From Halobellus sp. MBLA0158 (GTDB lineage Archaea > Halobacteriota > Halobacteria > Halobacteriales > Haloferacaceae): DNA of 64,000 nt. A program made the translations under genes and the position numbers. The DNA is taken from the NCBI RefSeq assembly GCF_041477585.1, contig NZ_JBGNYA010000001.1, positions 2,976,001 through 3,040,000 of the forward strand, written 5' to 3'. Of the stretch, positions 2,960 to 45,730 are shown piece after piece (position 1 is the first letter of the stretch; the number at the start of each line of letters is the position of its first letter). The notes under the pieces were generated by a model. The model saw nothing but the letters and a program-made list of their open reading frames with translations. It had not been told where the DNA came from and did not search any database.

Positions 2960-3083
2960 CGATACGTTCCGGTTGTCGCCCAATGCAAATGAAGGCGACG
3001 GCCCTGTCGACGCCCCGCCTCGGTATCACGAGGTCGCTCCCGAGAGGTCGCTGAGAGCGCAGGAGCGGCGACCGCAGCCGTCC

Positions 3084-7875: not shown

Positions 7876-9090
7876 TCAGACCGGGAGGCGCCGCCCGGCG
7901 ACGACGGCGCCGAGACAGCCCACGCAGACGACGCCGAGCCCCGCGGCGTAGGTCCCGGTGAGGTCGTACAGCGCGCCGACGAGGAACGGCCCGAGGAAGC
8001 CGCCGAGCTCCCCCACGGCGAAGACGAGCCCGACGGCCGTGCCCGTGAGTTCGGGCCCGACGCCGTCCAGTTCGGGCGGGACCATCCGGACGAGCGGGGA
8101 GAGCCCGCCCACGCCGAACCCGACGACGAGCGCGCCGACGACGGGCACGGCCAGCGGGACCGGCGCGAAGAGGAGCGCGCCAGTCCCGACCGAGCAGAGC
8201 GTCGCACAGCCGGCGATGACCGACCCGCGCGCGCCGAGGCGGTCCGAGAGCGTGGGGACGAAGAGCGTCCCGGCGGCCTGCGCGGCGACGAACCCGCTCA
8301 CCAGCGAGGCCGAAAGCGCCGCGCCGACCCCGCGGGACTGGAGGACGGTCGCGAGCCAGTTCTGGAGCCCGTGGGTCACGAGCAGATAGACCACGCCCAC
8401 GACGACGAGGAGCCGCATCGAGCGGTTCGAGAACACGCGCGCGAGGTCGCGGCGGAGCGCGGCGACCGAGGGGAGGTCCTCGCGGCCGTCTGCGTCCGCG
8501 GCGTGCCGGACCGCATCGAGCGGCGTCCGCCTGACGACGACCCACCAGCAGACGGCGTACGCGAGCACCGCGAGCCCGGTGTAGCGGAACAGCGGCCGCC
8601 ACCCGCCGAGGGGGTCGCCCAGGACGGCCCGGCCGATACTGAACGCCGCGGCCGTGCCCGCCAGCGACCCCACGACGTAGATGGACGACGGCGTCCCCGA
8701 TTCCGCGGGCGGGAAGAGCTCCGAGACGAGCTTCGGGAGTCCGAACGTCATCGCCGTCCCGCCGATCCCGACGAGGACGGTCAGCGCGAGCAGCACGGGA
8801 AAGGTCTCCGCGGCCGCGCGCCCGACCTGCGCCGCCCCGAACAGCACGAGCCCCGCGCCGATCGCGCGGTAGGGGCCGACGTAGTCGGTGACGACACCCG
8901 AGAAGAGCGCGACCGGGACGTAGGTGAGCGGGATCGCGCCCGTGAGCAGCCCGGCCTGCGTGCTCGTCAGGCCGAAGTCGGCGACGACGACGTCAAGCCA
9001 CGCCGGCACGGAGAACCAGACGAAGGTCAGCGCGGCGTAGGCGATCGATCCGAGCCCCAAGAGCACGTAGCGGCGGCGTCTCGTCGACAC
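7876..9090 (-). CDS. MFS transporter (CynX/NimT-like)
   Basis: A 404-residue secondary carrier with about twelve membrane helices in two six-helix halves joined by a charged cytoplasmic loop near residues 190-220 (DAVRHAADADGREDLPS). The first inter-helix loop has an MFS-type signature (GVVTDYVGPYRAIGAG). The overall pattern is closest to the CynX/NimT group, which takes up small anions or nitroimidazole-like compounds, but substrate cannot be read from the sequence. Translation starts at GTG 9090. A palindromic element (9146-9228) lies just upstream of its start. Confidence 0.8.
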   Translation of the reverse strand: MSTRRRRYVLLGLGSIAYAALTFVWFSVPAWLDVVVADFGLTSTQAGLLTGAIPLTYVPVALFSGVVTDYVGPYRAIGAGLVLFGAAQVGRAAAETFPVLLALTVLVGIGGTAMTFGLPKLVSELFPPAESGTPSSIYVVGSLAGTAAAFSIGRAVLGDPLGGWRPLFRYTGLAVLAYAVCWWVVVRRTPLDAVRHAADADGREDLPSVAALRRDLARVFSNRSMRLLVVVGVVYLLVTHGLQNWLATVLQSRGVGAALSASLVSGFVAAQAAGTLFVPTLSDRLGARGSVIAGCATLCSVGTGALLFAPVPLAVPVVGALVVGFGVGGLSPLVRMVPPELDGVGPELTGTAVGLVFAVGELGGFLGPFLVGALYDLTGTYAAGLGVVCVGCLGAVVAGRRLPV

Positions 9091-9145: not shown

Positions 9146-9228
9146 TCGTAGTGATTACGCTCGTCTCGTACCGACGAAGGCCACCCCAGTGACGGCGTTC
9201 GGCGGAACAGTGAGAGTAGTCCCTATCA
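9146..9228 (-). repeat. 83-nt stop-codon palindrome, copy A1
   Basis: Read on the minus strand it starts TGATAGGGACTACTCTCAC, contains the core CCGCCGAACGCCGTCA near its centre and ends GTAATCACTACGA. The first TGA is the stop codon of the gene at 9226-9471. The two arms form an imperfect inverted repeat. The far flank is CGA rather than TGA, as expected for a decayed direct repeat. Length and central sequence match the copies at 24837-24919 and 43536-43618. Confidence 0.75.
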
Positions 9229-9471
9229 GTTCGGCCCGGTGATGTCCATCGGGCGGATCCAGCCATACCAGATAGCGAAGATCATCCCGCCGTACCCGAG
9301 GACGAACACGATCGCGCCGAGGTCGTTGTAGCCGAGTTCGCCGAGGAAGCGGCGGACGAGCCCCGAGCCCGCGATCCCGACGACGAGCAGGGCGACGAGC
9401 AGCACCTTGTCCCGCGTGAGTTCGAAGAGCTGTCCGTCCGCCGGCTCGGCCTCGGCGTCCTCGTCGGTCAT
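9226..9471 (-). CDS. small two-helix membrane protein
   Basis: An 81-residue protein with an acidic, soluble N-terminus (TDEDAEAEPADGQ) and two membrane helices, KVLLVALLVVGIAGSGLV (about 22-39) and LGAIVFVLGYGGMIFAIWYGWI (about 51-72). I do not recognise the family; similar short proteins are common in haloarchaea. Its TGA stop is the first three bases of a palindromic element. It is preceded on the same strand by the sensor kinase at 9524, only 52 nt away, so the two may share a transcript. Confidence 0.6.
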   Translation of the reverse strand: MTDEDAEAEPADGQLFELTRDKVLLVALLVVGIAGSGLVRRFLGELGYNDLGAIVFVLGYGGMIFAIWYGWIRPMDITGPN

Positions 9472-16701: not shown

Positions 16702-16784
16702 TCATACTGTCGGACACAACTGTTTCAAGATATTCGCCGCCCCGGGCGGCGAAATTCTTCACAGACTTGTGTCCGACAGTATCA
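16702..16784 (-). repeat. 83-nt stop-codon palindrome, copy B
   Basis: On the minus strand it begins TGATACTGTCGGACACAA and ends TTGTGTCCGACAGTATGA. A 15-bp perfect terminal inverted repeat (TACTGTCGGACACAA) is flanked by TGA on both sides. The centre forms a second perfect stem TTCGCCGCC/GGCGGCGAA with a 3-nt loop. The first TGA is the stop codon of the ASCH gene. The internal sequence differs from the A copies, but the length, ends and placement are the same. Confidence 0.85.
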
Positions 16785-17105
16785 GTCCCGCCGCTCGAAC
16801 CGATACGTGAGCACCTCGTCGCTGTCGTCCCACTCGAAGTCGCCGGGGTGGACTCGCTCCATTCGGCGCTTGTACGCCTCCAGGGACTCCGAGCCCTCCC
16901 GTCGAGCGTCGGCGTCGGTGAAGTCGCCGAGCGTCCGCCGCTCGACGCTCGTCACCTCGAACGTCGCGCCGCCGAGCTCGAAGGTGTCGCCCTCGCCGGC
17001 GTAGCGGTTGCTCGCGCCGCGCGTCAACTGCGTCACGTCGCCGTCGAGCACGGACTGCTGGACGCGGTCGTTCGGCAGGAGGTCGTCGGGGTCGATTTCG
17101 GCCAT
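16782..17105 (-). CDS. ASCH-domain protein
   Basis: A 107-residue single-domain protein. The run RGASNRYAGEGDTFELGGAT followed by FEVTSVERRTLGDFTDADARREG is typical of ASCH domains, a PUA-like beta-barrel that binds RNA or modified nucleosides; some members are ribonucleases or amidohydrolases for N4-acetylcytidine. The conserved Glu-Gly after DADARRE and the SLEAYK helix are present. The role here is unknown. The stop codon is the first triplet of palindrome B. Confidence 0.8.
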   Translation of the reverse strand: MAEIDPDDLLPNDRVQQSVLDGDVTQLTRGASNRYAGEGDTFELGGATFEVTSVERRTLGDFTDADARREGSESLEAYKRRMERVHPGDFEWDDSDEVLTYRFERRD

Positions 17106-19145: not shown

Positions 19146-19353
19146 GTGTCTGCCCGCTCACTGGGGTCTGACCGAGGCTGTTTCGAGCTACGACAGGAGT
19201 TCCTCGGCTGCATCGATCGTCAAAAATGCCGGCCTCGGCACTCATAGGGCTCGTCGTCGTCGAGCGCCACCCCGACTCGGAGCGGTGCCGTCGTCATCGG
19301 CCGTCCGAAGCGAGGGCGGCGACTCAAAAGAGCGTTGCGAGCGTGGCGGAGCG
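19146..19353. other. intergenic region with a possible gene fragment
   Basis: No intact gene was found. On the minus strand near 19188-19240 a short open stretch ends ...PAFLTIDAAEELLS before a TAG. It looks like the C-terminus of a lost protein, perhaps debris from turnover next to the toxin-antitoxin module. The call is weak. Confidence 0.2.
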
Positions 19354-24836: not shown

Positions 24837-24919
24837 TCATAGCGAGTACTCTCACTGTGTACCGTCGAATGACCCCGATTACGGCGTTCGGCGGTAAGAG
24901 ACGAGCGTAATCAGTATCA
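24837..24919 (-). repeat. 83-nt stop-codon palindrome, copy A2
   Basis: On the minus strand it begins TGATACTGATTACGCTCG, contains CTTACCGCCGAACGCCGTAA, and ends GAGTACTCGCTATGA. Both ends carry TGA. The first TGA terminates the Nif3-like gene. The arms are complementary with mismatches. It aligns along its full length with copies A1 and A3. Confidence 0.82.
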
Positions 24920-25708
24920 GAGCCCCGTCGGATGCGAGAGGACCGTCGTCTCGACGCCCCACTCTCCGACTAGGTCCGCCAGACGCGCGACGCCGAAGGT
25001 CTCGGTGGCGTAGTGGCCGCCGAGGAAGACGTGGATCCCGGCCTCGCGGGCTTCGTGGTAGACCTGCTGTTTGCCCTCACCCGTCACGAGCGCATCGACG
25101 CCGGCGTCGGCGGCCTCGCCGAGCCAGTCGACGCCCGAGCCCGTGACGATGGCGATATCGCGGATCTCCTCGGGGCCGAAGTCGAGCACCTGGGGCTCCC
25201 GACCGTCGGTGTCGAGGTCGGCGAGTCGCGAGCGGACGTCGTCGACGGCGTAGGGTTCGGGGGTGCGGCCGCGACGCCCGATCGTCACGGGCCCCAGTTC
25301 GCCGAAGGCCGCCTGCCGTTCGAGGCCGAGGTGGTCGGCGAGCCCCGCGGCGTTGCCGAGCGAGGCGTGGCCGTCGAGCGGGAGGTGCGAGACGTACAGC
25401 GCGATATCGTGTTCGACGAGCGCGGAGACGGTCTCGTACGCCCGGCCGGTCACGCGGTCGAGTCCGCCCCAGACGAGGCCGTGGTGGGTCACGAGCAGGT
25501 CCGCGCCCGCCTCGGCGGCGGCCCCGATGGTGGCCGCGGCGGCGTCGACCGCGAAGGCGGCGCGCTCGATCTCGGGCGAATCCTCCCGAGGAGTGTGCTG
25601 GAGGTCGCCGGGGCCGACCTGGAGGCCGTTGGCGCTGGCGTCGACGTCGGCGTACGCGTCGGTGTCGAGTCGGTCGTCGAGTCGCGCGGTGAGCGTCGCG
25701 AGGTCCAT
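24917..25708 (-). CDS. Nif3-like dinuclear metal centre protein
   Basis: A 263-residue cytosolic protein of the Nif3/YbgI family, toroidal hexamers with a two-metal site. Likely metal ligands are the paired histidines of LLVTHHGLVWGG (near residue 75), His/Asp near YVSHLPLDGH, and the C-terminal LGGHYATETFG (His and Glu). Function is unsettled; some members are called GTP cyclohydrolase I type 2. The ATG at 25708 opens MDLATLTARLDDRL, as in relatives. It is downstream of the agmatinase gene, separated by a palindrome that may terminate transcription. Confidence 0.88.
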   Translation of the reverse strand: MDLATLTARLDDRLDTDAYADVDASANGLQVGPGDLQHTPREDSPEIERAAFAVDAAAATIGAAAEAGADLLVTHHGLVWGGLDRVTGRAYETVSALVEHDIALYVSHLPLDGHASLGNAAGLADHLGLERQAAFGELGPVTIGRRGRTPEPYAVDDVRSRLADLDTDGREPQVLDFGPEEIRDIAIVTGSGVDWLGEAADAGVDALVTGEGKQQVYHEAREAGIHVFLGGHYATETFGVARLADLVGEWGVETTVLSHPTGL

Positions 25709-41271: not shown

Positions 41272-43377
41272 TTACTGCGAGGTCGGGACCGGGCCGGCCC
41301 CGAAGGACGCCTCGGCGCCCGAGTCGGACCGGCAGTTCTCGGGCGCGCCGATCGTCACGGCGCACTGTTTCAGGTTCGGCTCCGCCGACTCGGGATCGAC
41401 CGCAGACAGGGTGAGCCGATTGGCGGCCGCGTTGTGGATTGGGAGCCAGACGACGCCGGGCGGGATGCCCTCGTTCGGGACGACCTCGACGACGACCTCG
41501 GCGCGCCGGGATTCGAGGACGGTCCGCGCCCGGTCGAACGCCGGGAGCCACTGGGCGATCGTCTCGGGGTGCATCCGCGCGGTCGGCACCGCGCTGTCCT
41601 CCCCGTTGCGGGTCCGGACCCCCGTGTTGTAGACGTCGGAGCTCCGCCCGGTCGTGAGCGTGAGCGGGTACTCGTCGTCGATGGGTTCCGGGAGAGTGCT
41701 GTGGGTGGCCGTCGAGAACTGCGCCCGGCCCGATTCCGTGTAGAACGACCAGTCCTCGCCGTCGTAGTACCGGTACTCCCCCTGGCCCTCGGTGTCGGGC
41801 GCGGGCCAGCGGACCGCGTACTCCTCGTCCAGCCGGTCGTAGGTGATCCCCGAGAGGTCCGCGGGGGTCCCCTCGGTCAGGTCGCGGATCTCGTCGAAGA
41901 TCGTCTCGGGGGCAAGCGGCGGCTCCGCGAACAGGTCCGGGTGGATGCGGTTGCCGATCGCCGCGATGACGTCCAGATCGGTCCGTGCCGACCCTGGCGG
42001 GTCCGAGACGGCGGTGACCCGGGAGATGCGGCGCTCCATATTCGTGGTCGTCCCCTCGGACTCGCCCCACGTCGCCGCCGGCAGCACCACGTCGGCGCAC
42101 TCGACCGTGTCCGAGCGGAAGGCGTCCTGGACGACGACGAAGGCGTCGTCGAGGGCGGTCCTGACGTGGCCCGCGTCGGGCATCCCGGCCGCGGGGTTCG
42201 TGGCGACGGCCCAGCAGACGTCGATGTTGTCGCGGGCGAGTTCGTCCACGATCCGGACGAAGCCCGGCCCCGCCGACGTCGGGAGTCGGCTCAGCGGGAC
42301 GTCCCACGTCTCGGCGACGAGCTCGCGGCTCGCCGGGTCCTCGAACTCGCGGTGGCCCGGCCAGGTCCCCTTCGACGCACAGACGCGGTTGCCCATCGAA
42401 TTGGCCTGGCCCGTGAGCGAGAAGGGGCCGCTGCCAGGACCCATATTCCCGGTCGCCAGACAGAGATCGATCAGCGCCCGCGCCGTGGCCGTCCCCTGGA
42501 TGTTCTGATTGACGCCCATCCCCCAGTAGACGAGCGTCGGGTCCGCGAACGCGTCCGCGATCGCCGCGACGTCGTCGACGTCGACGCCGGCGACCTCGGC
42601 CGCGGCCTCGACCTCGGGGAGCGCCTCGACGGTCTCCTCGAAGCCCTCTGTGTGATCGAGGAACGACTCGTCGACTCCGTCCTCGTCGACCAGATACGCC
42701 AGGACCGCCCGCGCCAGGGCGAGGTCGGTCCCGGGCTCGGGTCGGACGTGCGTGTCGGCCTCGCTGGCCGTCCGCGTCGTGACGGGGTCGACGACGACGA
42801 GCCGCCCGTCCTCGTCGGCGCTGTTGGCGATCCAGCGGTGCAACACGGGGTGGGCCACCGACGGGTTCGCCCCCCAGACGACGTGGGAGGTCGCCCGCGG
42901 GATGTCGTCGTAGGTCGGCGGCGGGGCGTCGCTGCCGAACGCCTGGTAGTACGCCGTCACCGCCGACGCCATACACAGCGTCGTGTTCGCGTCGTAGTAC
43001 CGCGTCCCGAACGCCCCGCGGGCGACCTTCCCGAGCGCGTAGGCCGCCTCGTTCGTCTGCTGGCCGCTCCCCAGCACGGCGACGTTGTCCGGATCGTCCC
43101 GGAGCGCCTCGATGAGCCGCGTCGTGACGACGCCGAGGGCCGTGTCCCAGTCGGTCGGCTGGAGCTCGCCGCCGCGGCGGATCAGCGGCTCGGTCAGGCG
43201 CTCGCCGTCCGGATCGACCGTCTCACGGACGCCGCGCTGGCACTTGAGGCCCTCGTTCGTCGGATGGTCGGGGTTGCCACGGGCTTCCGCGACGCCGACG
43301 CCGTCGGTTCCGTTCCGCTGGAGGTAACCGCAGCCGACGGCACACCGCATACACGTCGTCGGATGCCAGTCACTCAT
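41272..43377 (-). CDS. nasA: assimilatory nitrate reductase (copy 1)
   Basis: A 701-residue bis-molybdopterin enzyme reducing nitrate to nitrite in the cytoplasm. An N-terminal [4Fe-4S] site (Cys9, 12, 16, 46 in CMRCAVGC ... GLKCQRG) is followed by the DMSO-reductase fold. Cys135 in NTTLCMASA is the likely molybdenum ligand. Further family motifs are YWGMGVNQNIQGT, GQANSMGNRVC and the C-terminal LTLTTGRSSDVYNTG oxyanion/cofactor region. No C-terminal second cluster or membrane subunit is present, fitting ferredoxin-dependent NasA. It is closely related to the next gene, 43616-45730. Confidence 0.93.
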   Translation of the reverse strand: MSDWHPTTCMRCAVGCGYLQRNGTDGVGVAEARGNPDHPTNEGLKCQRGVRETVDPDGERLTEPLIRRGGELQPTDWDTALGVVTTRLIEALRDDPDNVAVLGSGQQTNEAAYALGKVARGAFGTRYYDANTTLCMASAVTAYYQAFGSDAPPPTYDDIPRATSHVVWGANPSVAHPVLHRWIANSADEDGRLVVVDPVTTRTASEADTHVRPEPGTDLALARAVLAYLVDEDGVDESFLDHTEGFEETVEALPEVEAAAEVAGVDVDDVAAIADAFADPTLVYWGMGVNQNIQGTATARALIDLCLATGNMGPGSGPFSLTGQANSMGNRVCASKGTWPGHREFEDPASRELVAETWDVPLSRLPTSAGPGFVRIVDELARDNIDVCWAVATNPAAGMPDAGHVRTALDDAFVVVQDAFRSDTVECADVVLPAATWGESEGTTTNMERRISRVTAVSDPPGSARTDLDVIAAIGNRIHPDLFAEPPLAPETIFDEIRDLTEGTPADLSGITYDRLDEEYAVRWPAPDTEGQGEYRYYDGEDWSFYTESGRAQFSTATHSTLPEPIDDEYPLTLTTGRSSDVYNTGVRTRNGEDSAVPTARMHPETIAQWLPAFDRARTVLESRRAEVVVEVVPNEGIPPGVVWLPIHNAAANRLTLSAVDPESAEPNLKQCAVTIGAPENCRSDSGAEASFGAGPVPTSQ

Positions 43378-43535: not shown

Positions 43536-43618
43536 TCATAGTGAGTACTCTCGTCTCTTACCGCCGAACGCCGTCATCGGGGGTCGTTCGGCGTGAGAGA
43601 CGAGCGTAGTCACTATCA
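43536..43618 (-). repeat. 83-nt stop-codon palindrome, copy A3
   Basis: The best-preserved A copy. On the minus strand it reads TGA, then TAGTGACTACGCTCGTCTCT..., a short central loop, and ...AGAGACGAGAGTACTCACTA, then TGA. The arms pair over about 31 nt with three mismatches and one bulge. The first TGA is the stop codon of the second nasA gene. Confidence 0.88.
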
Positions 43619-45730
43619 GTCGCTATCGATGCGCGTGGGGTCGTCCGGGACGGAGATCCCCTGATCGATGAGCGGCGCCGAGCGGCCGGGCACCTGCATC
43701 GTCACGGCGCACTGCTTGAAGTTCGGCTCGTCCGACTGCGGGTCGACCGCCGGGAGCGTGAGCGCGTTCACCGCCGGGTGGTGGATCGGGAGCCACACCA
43801 TCCCGGGCGGGATCCCGTCGTCGGGCTGGACCGTCACCGTGACCGAGGCCCGCCGCGAGGTCAGGACGGTCCGGCCGCGGTCCAAGGCCTCCATATTGTC
43901 CAGCGTCGTCTCCGGGTGGATGCGCGCGACCGGCGACTCGTCGGTCTTCCCGTTCCGCGTCCGGACGCCGGTGTTGTACGCGTCGGGGGTCCGGCCGGTC
44001 GTGAGCGTGAGCGGATACGACTCGTCGGTCGGTTCGGCGAGCCCGTCGTGGGTGCCCGTCGAGAACCGTGCGCGGCCCGAGGAGGTCGGGAACGCCCAGC
44101 CGTCGTCGCTGTGGTAGCGATAGCCGCCCTGGACGTCGGGCTCGGGCGCGGGCCAGCGGACCGCCAGCTCCGCGTCCAGGCGGTCGTAAGAGATGCCCGA
44201 GAGGTCCGCGGGCGTTCCCGCGGTCAGGTCGCGGAGCTCGTCGAAGATCGACTCGGGATCGAGCGGCGGCTGTGCGAAGAGGTCCGGCGCGAGCCGATTG
44301 CCGATCGTCGCGATGATGTCGAGGTCCTGCTTGATCTTCGGCGGCACCTCGGTCGCCGCGCGGACCCGCGAGACCGTCCGCTCCATGTTCGTGGTCGTCC
44401 CCGCGGACTCGCCCCACGTCGCGGCCGGCAGCACCACGTCCGCGACCTCGACGGTCTCGGTGTGGAAGGCGTCCTGAGCCACCAGGAACGTCTCCGAGAG
44501 CGCCTCGCGGACGTCGTCGGCGTCGGGCATCCCCGCGACCGGGTTGGTGGCGACCGTCCAGCAGGCCTCGACCGGCCCGTCGGCGACGGCGTCGACGATC
44601 CCCACGGGACCGGGACCCGGATCGTCCGGGAGGCGGTCGACCGGCACGTCCCAGGTCTCGGCGACGGTCTCGCGGTGTTCGGGGTCGGTAAAGGGACGGT
44701 GGCCCGGCCAGGTCCCCTTCGACGAGCAGACCCGCGTGCCCATCGAGTTGGCTTGCCCCGTGAGCGAGAACGGGCCGCTTCCGGGACCCATATTCCCGGT
44801 TGCCAAGCAGAGGTCGATCAGCGCCCGCGCCGTCTTCGTCCCCTGGACGCTCTGATTGACGCCCATCCCCCAATAGACGAGGGTCGGGTCCGCGAGCGCC
44901 GCAGCGACGCGTTCCACGTCGTCGACGTCGACGCCGGCGACCTCGGCCGCGGCCGCGACCTCGGGGAGCGAATCGAGGAGCGCGTCGAAGCCCGTCGTCG
45001 ACGCCTCGACGAACTCGCGGTCGACGAGGCCCGACTCGACCGCGCTCGCCAGGACCGCCCGGGCGAACGCGAGGTCGGTGCCGGGGTCGACCTGGACGTG
45101 GTGGTCCGCGTCGTCGACGGTCTCGCTCTCGACGGGGTCGACCACGAGCAGTTCGCTGTCGGTGTCGCCCGCGCTGTCGACGATCCAGCGGTACATCACG
45201 GGGTGGGCCGCCGCGGGGTTCGCCCCCCAGACGAGGTGCGTCTCGGCCTCGGGGATGTCGTCGTAGGTCGGCGGCGGGGCGTCGCTGCCGAACGCCTGGT
45301 AGTACGCCGTCACCGCAGACGCCATACACAGCGTCGTGTTCGCGTCGTAATACCGCGTTCCGATGCCGCCGCGGGCGACCTTCCCGAGCGCGTAGGCCGC
45401 CTCGTTCGTCTGCTGGCCGCTCCCCAGCACCGCGATGCCGTTCCTGTCGCGGTCGAGAACCTCGGCGAACCGCGAGGTCACGACATCGAGCGCCTCCTCC
45501 CAGGTCGTCGCGACGAGCTTGCCGTCCTCGCGGACCAGCGGCCGGGTGAGCCACTCGCCGTCGGGATCGGCCGTCTCCCGGACGCCCCGCTGACAGGCCA
45601 GCCCGCGGTTCACCGGGTGGTTGGCGTCGCCCCGGACCGTATCGAGCCCGTAGCCGTTGTCCACGCTCTGCTGGAGGTGACCGCACCCGACCGCACACCG
45701 CATACACGTCGTCGGCGTCCACTCGGTCAT
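43616..45730 (-). CDS. assimilatory nitrate reductase (copy 2)
   Basis: A 704-residue paralogue of the gene at 41272, with the same cofactor residues (Cys9, 12, 16, 46 and Cys135) and matching motifs throughout. A 178-nt stretch (45254-45431) is about 96 percent identical in DNA to 42901-43078, far above the genes overall, suggesting recent gene conversion. It may differ from copy 1 in kinetics or regulation. It is divergent from nirA across a 497-nt AT-rich gap. Its stop codon is the first triplet of palindrome A3. Confidence 0.92.
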   Translation of the reverse strand: MTEWTPTTCMRCAVGCGHLQQSVDNGYGLDTVRGDANHPVNRGLACQRGVRETADPDGEWLTRPLVREDGKLVATTWEEALDVVTSRFAEVLDRDRNGIAVLGSGQQTNEAAYALGKVARGGIGTRYYDANTTLCMASAVTAYYQAFGSDAPPPTYDDIPEAETHLVWGANPAAAHPVMYRWIVDSAGDTDSELLVVDPVESETVDDADHHVQVDPGTDLAFARAVLASAVESGLVDREFVEASTTGFDALLDSLPEVAAAAEVAGVDVDDVERVAAALADPTLVYWGMGVNQSVQGTKTARALIDLCLATGNMGPGSGPFSLTGQANSMGTRVCSSKGTWPGHRPFTDPEHRETVAETWDVPVDRLPDDPGPGPVGIVDAVADGPVEACWTVATNPVAGMPDADDVREALSETFLVAQDAFHTETVEVADVVLPAATWGESAGTTTNMERTVSRVRAATEVPPKIKQDLDIIATIGNRLAPDLFAQPPLDPESIFDELRDLTAGTPADLSGISYDRLDAELAVRWPAPEPDVQGGYRYHSDDGWAFPTSSGRARFSTGTHDGLAEPTDESYPLTLTTGRTPDAYNTGVRTRNGKTDESPVARIHPETTLDNMEALDRGRTVLTSRRASVTVTVQPDDGIPPGMVWLPIHHPAVNALTLPAVDPQSDEPNFKQCAVTMQVPGRSAPLIDQGISVPDDPTRIDSD

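Follow-up and report, generated by a model that had tools for sequence, protein, structure and literature searches.

Palindromic MITE-type elements of Halobellus and other haloarchaea that duplicate a TSA target and often lie exactly on stop codons

In the analysed 64-kb stretch of the Halobellus sp. MBLA0158 genome (the window, to which all positions refer), an 83-nt palindrome, copy B, lies at 16702-16784 between two convergent genes. Copy B and three related palindromes of the window (copies A1, A2 and A3) share one architecture and are flanked by a target duplication within a recurrent target motif. They lie exactly at stop codons, and the element is absent from orthologous stops. Most probably they belong to a superfamily of MITEs mobilised in trans, 77-81 nt long in Halobellus and measuring about 108 nt in certain other haloarchaea, which duplicates a TSA target and is harmless at stops (probability about 0.8).

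The length and position of copy B had been given correctly in the first-pass annotation of this DNA. Both flanking triplets are included in the 83 nt, and the strand was left implicit, the reading being that of the minus strand. This strand reads TGATACTG...CAGTATGA and the plus strand TCATACTG...CAGTATCA. Without the outer triplets, the core comprises 77 nt, TACTGTCGGACACAA...TTGTGTCCGACAGTA, and has TCA on each side (Table 1). Copy B tops the list of inverted repeats in the window (arm distance ≤120). The 15-bp perfect terminal repeat and the inner 9-bp stem, both described before, are present in the sequence and in the RNA fold, respectively. The predicted RNA forms a long hairpin plus the inner stem with -50.3 kcal/mol (z -9.1), and 0 of 200 shuffles folded equally well. 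Between positions 8500 and 45000, none of the palindromes matched an Rfam family at the gathering threshold. The only match in this region was the C/D-box RNA sR-tMet at 19231-19302 on the minus strand, which with 71.5 bits is above the gathering score.

Table 1. Positions of copy B, its parts and neighbouring genes, and of the A copies in the window
Feature	Position	Strand	Remarks
Copy B element core, 77 nt	16705..16781		TACTG...CAGTA, 15-bp perfect terminal inverted repeats; genomic copies 99-100% identical over 79 nt
Copy B left target-duplication triplet TCA	16702..16704		Direct repeat of 16782-16784
Copy B right target-duplication triplet TCA = TGA stop codon of gene 16782-17105	16782..16784	-	ORF list and sequence
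Copy B left terminal inverted repeat, 15 bp (TACTGTCGGACACAA)	16705..16719	+	
Copy B right terminal inverted repeat, 15 bp	16767..16781	-	
Copy B mismatch bubble, left half (CTG.. vs GTC.. on opposite arm)	16720..16724	+	Arm disagreement in B-like elements
Copy B mismatch bubble, right half	16762..16766	-	Arm disagreement in B-like elements
Copy B inner 9-bp stem, left arm	16733..16741	+	RNA fold
Copy B inner 9-bp stem, right arm	16745..16753	-	RNA fold
Copy B target gene, 107 aa	16782..17105	-	Weak ASCH-domain match below Pfam cut-off
Copy B convergent neighbour gene, 208 aa	16055..16681	+	No Pfam match; stop 23 nt before core
Copy A1 with flanking triplets	24837..24919		83-nt TCATA...TATCA palindrome; on stop of gene 24917-25708(-), DUF34/NIF3
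Copy A2 with flanking triplets	43536..43618		83-nt TCATA...TATCA palindrome; on stop of gene 43616-45730(-), molybdopterin oxidoreductase
Copy A3 (decayed), core 9149-9225, with right triplet	9149..9228		On stop of gene 9226-9471(-); left triplet decayed to TCG

Stop-codon placement is common to A and B, as had been noted earlier: in 4/4 window copies a flanking triplet is the stop of a gene (Table 1). Folding of each copy, which had been proposed as a check, gave strong hairpins in three of the four (-47 to -55 kcal/mol). Copy A1 folds only weakly (z -1.5) and has therefore decayed. Grouping of the palindromes over the 3.29 Mb host genome, also proposed, yielded three B copies and 68 A matches over both strands. 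The latter correspond to about 40 places, which is a lower bound with 40 of 55 first-look candidates scored. The core measures 80 nt in most A copies (76-81 nt in well-resolved ones) and 77 nt in B. The identical length claimed for A and B thus holds for the 83-nt copies of the window and is partly a coincidence of it, given these genome-wide values and the elements of about 108 nt elsewhere. Copy A2 is flanked by tandem paralogous genes of the molybdopterin oxidoreductase type (41340-43111 and 43687-45464), which are 77-86% alike over long stretches. Two A copies (L013 and L014) have an identical loop and outer arms in swapped order, which suggests that the inner part was flipped by exchange between the arms.

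A and B have their ends, TA[C/G]TG...CA[G/C]TA, in common. They also share co-varying arms, a mismatch bubble 15-19 nt from each end, a TNA duplication (mostly TGA or TCA) and the seating on stops. The tetramer pairs ACTG/GTCT of A and ACTG/AGTC of B are located at nearly equal distance from the ends. In 27 A copies of the own genome, the arms disagree at positions 15-19 in 93-96%. In 80 short B-like elements they differ at positions 16 and 18 in 97% each, compared with 0-20% at positions 1-14, and the arms of 121 distinct B-like elements agree at positions 1-14 and then diverge. Among 62 elements, hand-chosen for diversity, positions 1-14 pair in 52-62 of the 62; at positions 6-14 the arms match in 52-61, where shuffling gives means of 21-37. 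This co-variation alone does not demonstrate an RNA function. It may stem from the end sequences that members of a subfamily have in common, with a different enzyme acting on each subfamily. Judged by these sequence features, we read A and B as one MITE superfamily of full-length palindromes with TSA duplication and frequent exact seating on stops. The first-pass annotation had argued for a common insertion or a functional constraint and against chance; the ends, TNA duplication, bubble and stop seating speak for one kind of inserted element, and the part on host function found no support. Copy B is also no fragment of an unrelated IS with a different duplication, an option considered there, since its duplication is the same as that of the A copies. 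At one further locus (L072), a second 80-nt palindrome with the ends TAGTAGCGTTTGCA, an AGTC/ACTG bubble and unequal flanking triplets was found at most 130 nt from a B-like match; it is possibly a third subfamily.

Equal flanking triplets were found in 25/35 well-resolved copies of the own genome (TCA/TCA, TGA/TGA and once TTA/TTA) and in 55 of the 59 B-like copies scored in four other Halobellus genomes, G014, G005, G004 and G007 (60 loci examined, one dropped for unclear ends). In named haloarchaea and MAGs the duplication is present in 64/73. It reads TGA or TCA regardless of the orientation of the element, and the triplet therefore belongs to the target. Over 93 copies the target shows C at -1 (73%), G at +3 (64%), G at -3 (63%) and C at +5 (52%), which gives the palindromic consensus G-N-C-T-S-A-G-N-C. 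In G005, one copy (L220, about 3004-3027) has collapsed to 24 nt, in which the two ends are fused, with a TCA triplet on each side; it looks like the product of a deletion of the hairpin core.

B-like matches were identified in 31 of 197 relatives searched and A-like matches in 13 of 148 genomes of the family, of which nine, the own one among them, are Halobellus genomes. An exact-pattern scan of contigs, with at least 120 loci, has Natrialba, Natronorubrum, Halostella, Halobellus and many Halobacteriales MAGs among the matches listed; a few bacterial matches are scattered and due to chance. Many elements of this set measure about 108 nt (48 of 73 two-ended copies, drawn from the at least 120 loci).

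A match of the subfamilies to the ends of resident IS elements, as suggested in the first-pass annotation, did not appear: none of the loci scanned contained a resident IS with these ends. For an autonomous element with these ends, a pattern search in G005 gave only MITE-size elements among the 100 listed of 119 end matches. Thirteen sequence stretches likewise contained only MITE-size copies, some with decayed ends. Scanning for far end partners (80 listed of at least 120 contig loci) showed that the unpaired ends are mostly truncated or matched by chance. At one locus (L370), a far partner with an equal triplet was observed 3.7 kb away, beside separate short copies. Phages gave no match to the element, and none of nine pattern matches in viral contigs was a palindromic copy. 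PF01609 transposases of six Halobellus genomes (30 loci from 47 matches) included none with these ends and no IS5-type element with TACTG-type ends. The IS1031 group of the IS5 family makes a 3-bp TNA duplication, as the Halobellus palindromes do, and its ends start with GAG, which differs from TACTG. The lack of a linked transposase and the ends specific to subfamilies in each species group would be compatible with a single-copy enzyme acting in trans. Correia elements and other bacterial palindromic MITEs are also small and intergenic; they differ in their TA target and their hosts.

MITEs are described as short, non-coding, multicopy and intergenic elements with terminal inverted repeats and target duplication (PMC10969869), and the Halobellus palindromes share these traits. 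These are short and without a transposase gene, have terminal inverted repeats and a target-site duplication, and are dispersed in multiple copies with insertion polymorphism between relatives. They differ from prokaryotic MITEs in being palindromic over the whole length, in their frequent exact seating on stops and in that a parent transposon was not found in the loci scanned. The term "stop codon" has 0 occurrences in the accessible text of that review (PMC10969869). SMR-A and SMR-B of Haloquadratum walsbyi are 80-110 bp long with terminal inverted repeats unrelated to known transposons and, in the part of the report available, are described as inserting in PATEs and other mobile elements without target duplication (PMC3119063). 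The Halobellus palindromes resemble them in size, terminal inverted repeats, haloarchaeal host and strong target preference; in contrast to what is reported for SMRs, they duplicate TSA and sit at gene ends. By the definition given there (PMC3119063), the duplication sets the Halobellus palindromes apart from SMRs. Searches of open-licence papers returned no published description of these elements.

In the own genome, the stop codon lies at distance 0 in 31/35 copies compared with 69/399 (17%) other non-coding TSA sites. For these counts 43 places were examined, and eight were dropped for unclear ends, among them A1 (24837), which is itself on a stop. Without the window, 35 of 277 non-coding TSA sites of the own-genome loci are on stops. 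A copies lie on stops in 23/40 cases in G010 and 10/13 in G008, where all rows were kept, some with doubtful ends. For B-like copies the counts are 9/19 (G014), 4/10 (G007), 3/10 (G004) and 2/19 (G005), after two of 60 rows, one each in G014 and G005, had been dropped. G005 contains about 60 near-identical CTATA-type copies, a recent burst without stop-codon preference. In the set from named haloarchaea and MAGs, 29 of the 73 copies with both ends coincide with a stop, compared with 263/3517 control sites. Gene calls were made with a simple codon model of our own, which agreed with RefSeq in 6/6 cases for the copies on the H. limi plasmid (NZ_CP031312.1). In six of 12 annotated plasmid copies, a RefSeq CDS stop lies exactly on the flanking triplet. 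When the triplets are unequal at a stop, the gene-side triplet is an intact stop in 21/21, which shows that the far triplet is the decaying one, though this number partly follows from the definition.

The naive enrichment at stops (p = 4e-24; motif-weighted 7e-15) was at first sight a proof of targeting and is weakened by a conditional case-control model. In this model, each hit site was compared with other non-coding TSA sites within 1 kb. The covariates were local GC, the distance from gene starts and the motif, which was derived solely from 112 copies not at stops. For the three Halobellus genomes G000, G010 and G008 combined (31 of 35, 34 of 35 chosen and 12 of 12 chosen copies; 77 cases, 60 at stops), the odds ratio falls from a crude 22.7 to an adjusted 6.3 (p = 6.9e-6). 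Much of the stop effect is therefore due to the target sequence and composition, and the residual ratio argues against a full account by motif and GC. These two terms are strong in all data sets, and the adjusted ratios range from 0.2 to 9.5, with 3.9 (p = 0.022) for G014 and G007 and 0.5 (p = 0.41) for G005 and G004. Thus, much of the enrichment reflects the target motif with GC-rich flanks, and a part is unexplained in some subfamilies. This part could be due to active targeting, in which insertion is also guided by the end of translation or transcription, for example by single-stranded DNA behind an uncoupled polymerase. Adjusted ratios of 9.5 in G000 (p = 0.0008), 5.1 in G010 (p = 0.0075), 5.5 in G014 (p = 0.013) and 2.4 over the 73 copies from many haloarchaea (p = 0.009) point in this direction, as do the tandem gaps of G000, where 16 of 17 copies occupy the stop codon, and the young B copies, which are on stops in 3/3. 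However, stops are not preferred in the G005 burst (2 of 29 cases, adjusted odds ratio 0.6, p = 0.61), and G004 behaves likewise. A signal linked to transcription should, moreover, act across the 3' region instead of marking a single triplet, and with simple gene calls an unmodelled sequence preference could leave a residual odds ratio. We therefore regard active targeting as unlikely. It seems doubtful, too, that archaeal mini-transposons actively home to stops in the sense that the motif around TGA and a signal of the translated DNA end together place the 77-81-nt hairpin exactly after the stop. If they did, rebuilding of the stop by the 3-bp duplication would provide a built-in harmless landing site at any gene end.

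The seating on stops could also result from exaptation, with copies at stop codons retained as a terminator or mRNA-stabilising hairpin while others decay. The RNA hairpins are very stable in the three of four copies mentioned above, and a large share of copies lies at stops in the older A family, compared with a small one in the young burst of G005. However, the orientation of the arms relative to the gene is random (31 versus 32, one tie), copies with an intact duplication are at stops as often as decayed ones, and a terminator does not need a distance of exactly 0. The element is also absent at orthologous genes. In other Halobellus species, ten loci orthologous to the copy B gene end in TGA at the same position without the element, and for the copy A1 gene 11/11 orthologues (species) have a stop (TGA, TAA or TAG) there, again without it. 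In an M48 protease gene the element is present in Haloarcula hispanica, decayed in Haloarcula sp. CBA1115 and absent in H. marismortui and H. sinaiiensis, with an identical TGA. Since orthologues of all three genes have the stop without the element, the insertion is secondary to the stop codon. An exact empty site between near-identical genomes was not obtained in these comparisons because the downstream flank differs each time. In the CBA1115 case (L252), the decayed copy contrasts with the nearly perfect one of H. hispanica at a flanking gene about 94% alike, which suggests that one copy was repaired with another as template or that this stop was hit twice. In one orthologous gap, G000 carries an A copy (L104), and the copy of G014 (L131) is B-like and lies on the stop codon. 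Shared gaps are rare among 125 loci compared and, together with the random orientation, leave no sign that copies are retained for a host function. The terminator reading was rejected for this orientation and the lack of conservation at orthologous genes, and exaptation in general appears improbable. A hairpin with a conserved internal mismatch would also fit palindromes derived from IS200/IS605 (PATE) or REP-like hairpins moved single-stranded by a Y1 transposase, and PATEs are abundant in Haloquadratum (PMC3119063, in the part available). According to the same accessible description, however, PATEs have neither terminal inverted repeats nor target duplications (PMC3119063), and the Halobellus palindromes have both. 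The 3-bp direct repeats largely refute this origin, which we consider very improbable.

For the preferred trans-mobilised MITE superfamily, the following course can be proposed. A putative transposase supplied in trans would recognise the terminal arms, with the mismatch bubble probably marking the site of binding or strand transfer. The enzyme would cut the G-N-C-T-S-A-G-N-C target with a 3-base stagger, and gap repair would give the observed duplication of TSA, that is TGA or TCA. In these GC-rich genomes the last codon with the stop, e.g., GAC-TGA-G, is among the commonest non-coding matches to this target. At a stop, the duplication leaves a full TGA beside the gene, so that the protein would be unchanged and the insertion tolerated. 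It would be harmless there because the duplication rebuilds the stop. Insertions within genes would be eliminated, and insertions upstream of genes would probably be at a disadvantage.

If this reading is right, gene ends would be a recurrent safe harbour, in which a selfish element with a target duplication identical to the stop codon can multiply in a genome of about 90% coding sequence with little damage. Identical hairpins would thereby be added to the 3' ends of unrelated genes, and effects on transcript ends could be tested. The subfamilies of G005/G004 and G000/G010 differ in their stop preference, so that target choice and selection could be separated. In addition, the elements point to a putative haloarchaeal transposase with a 3-bp TSA stagger.
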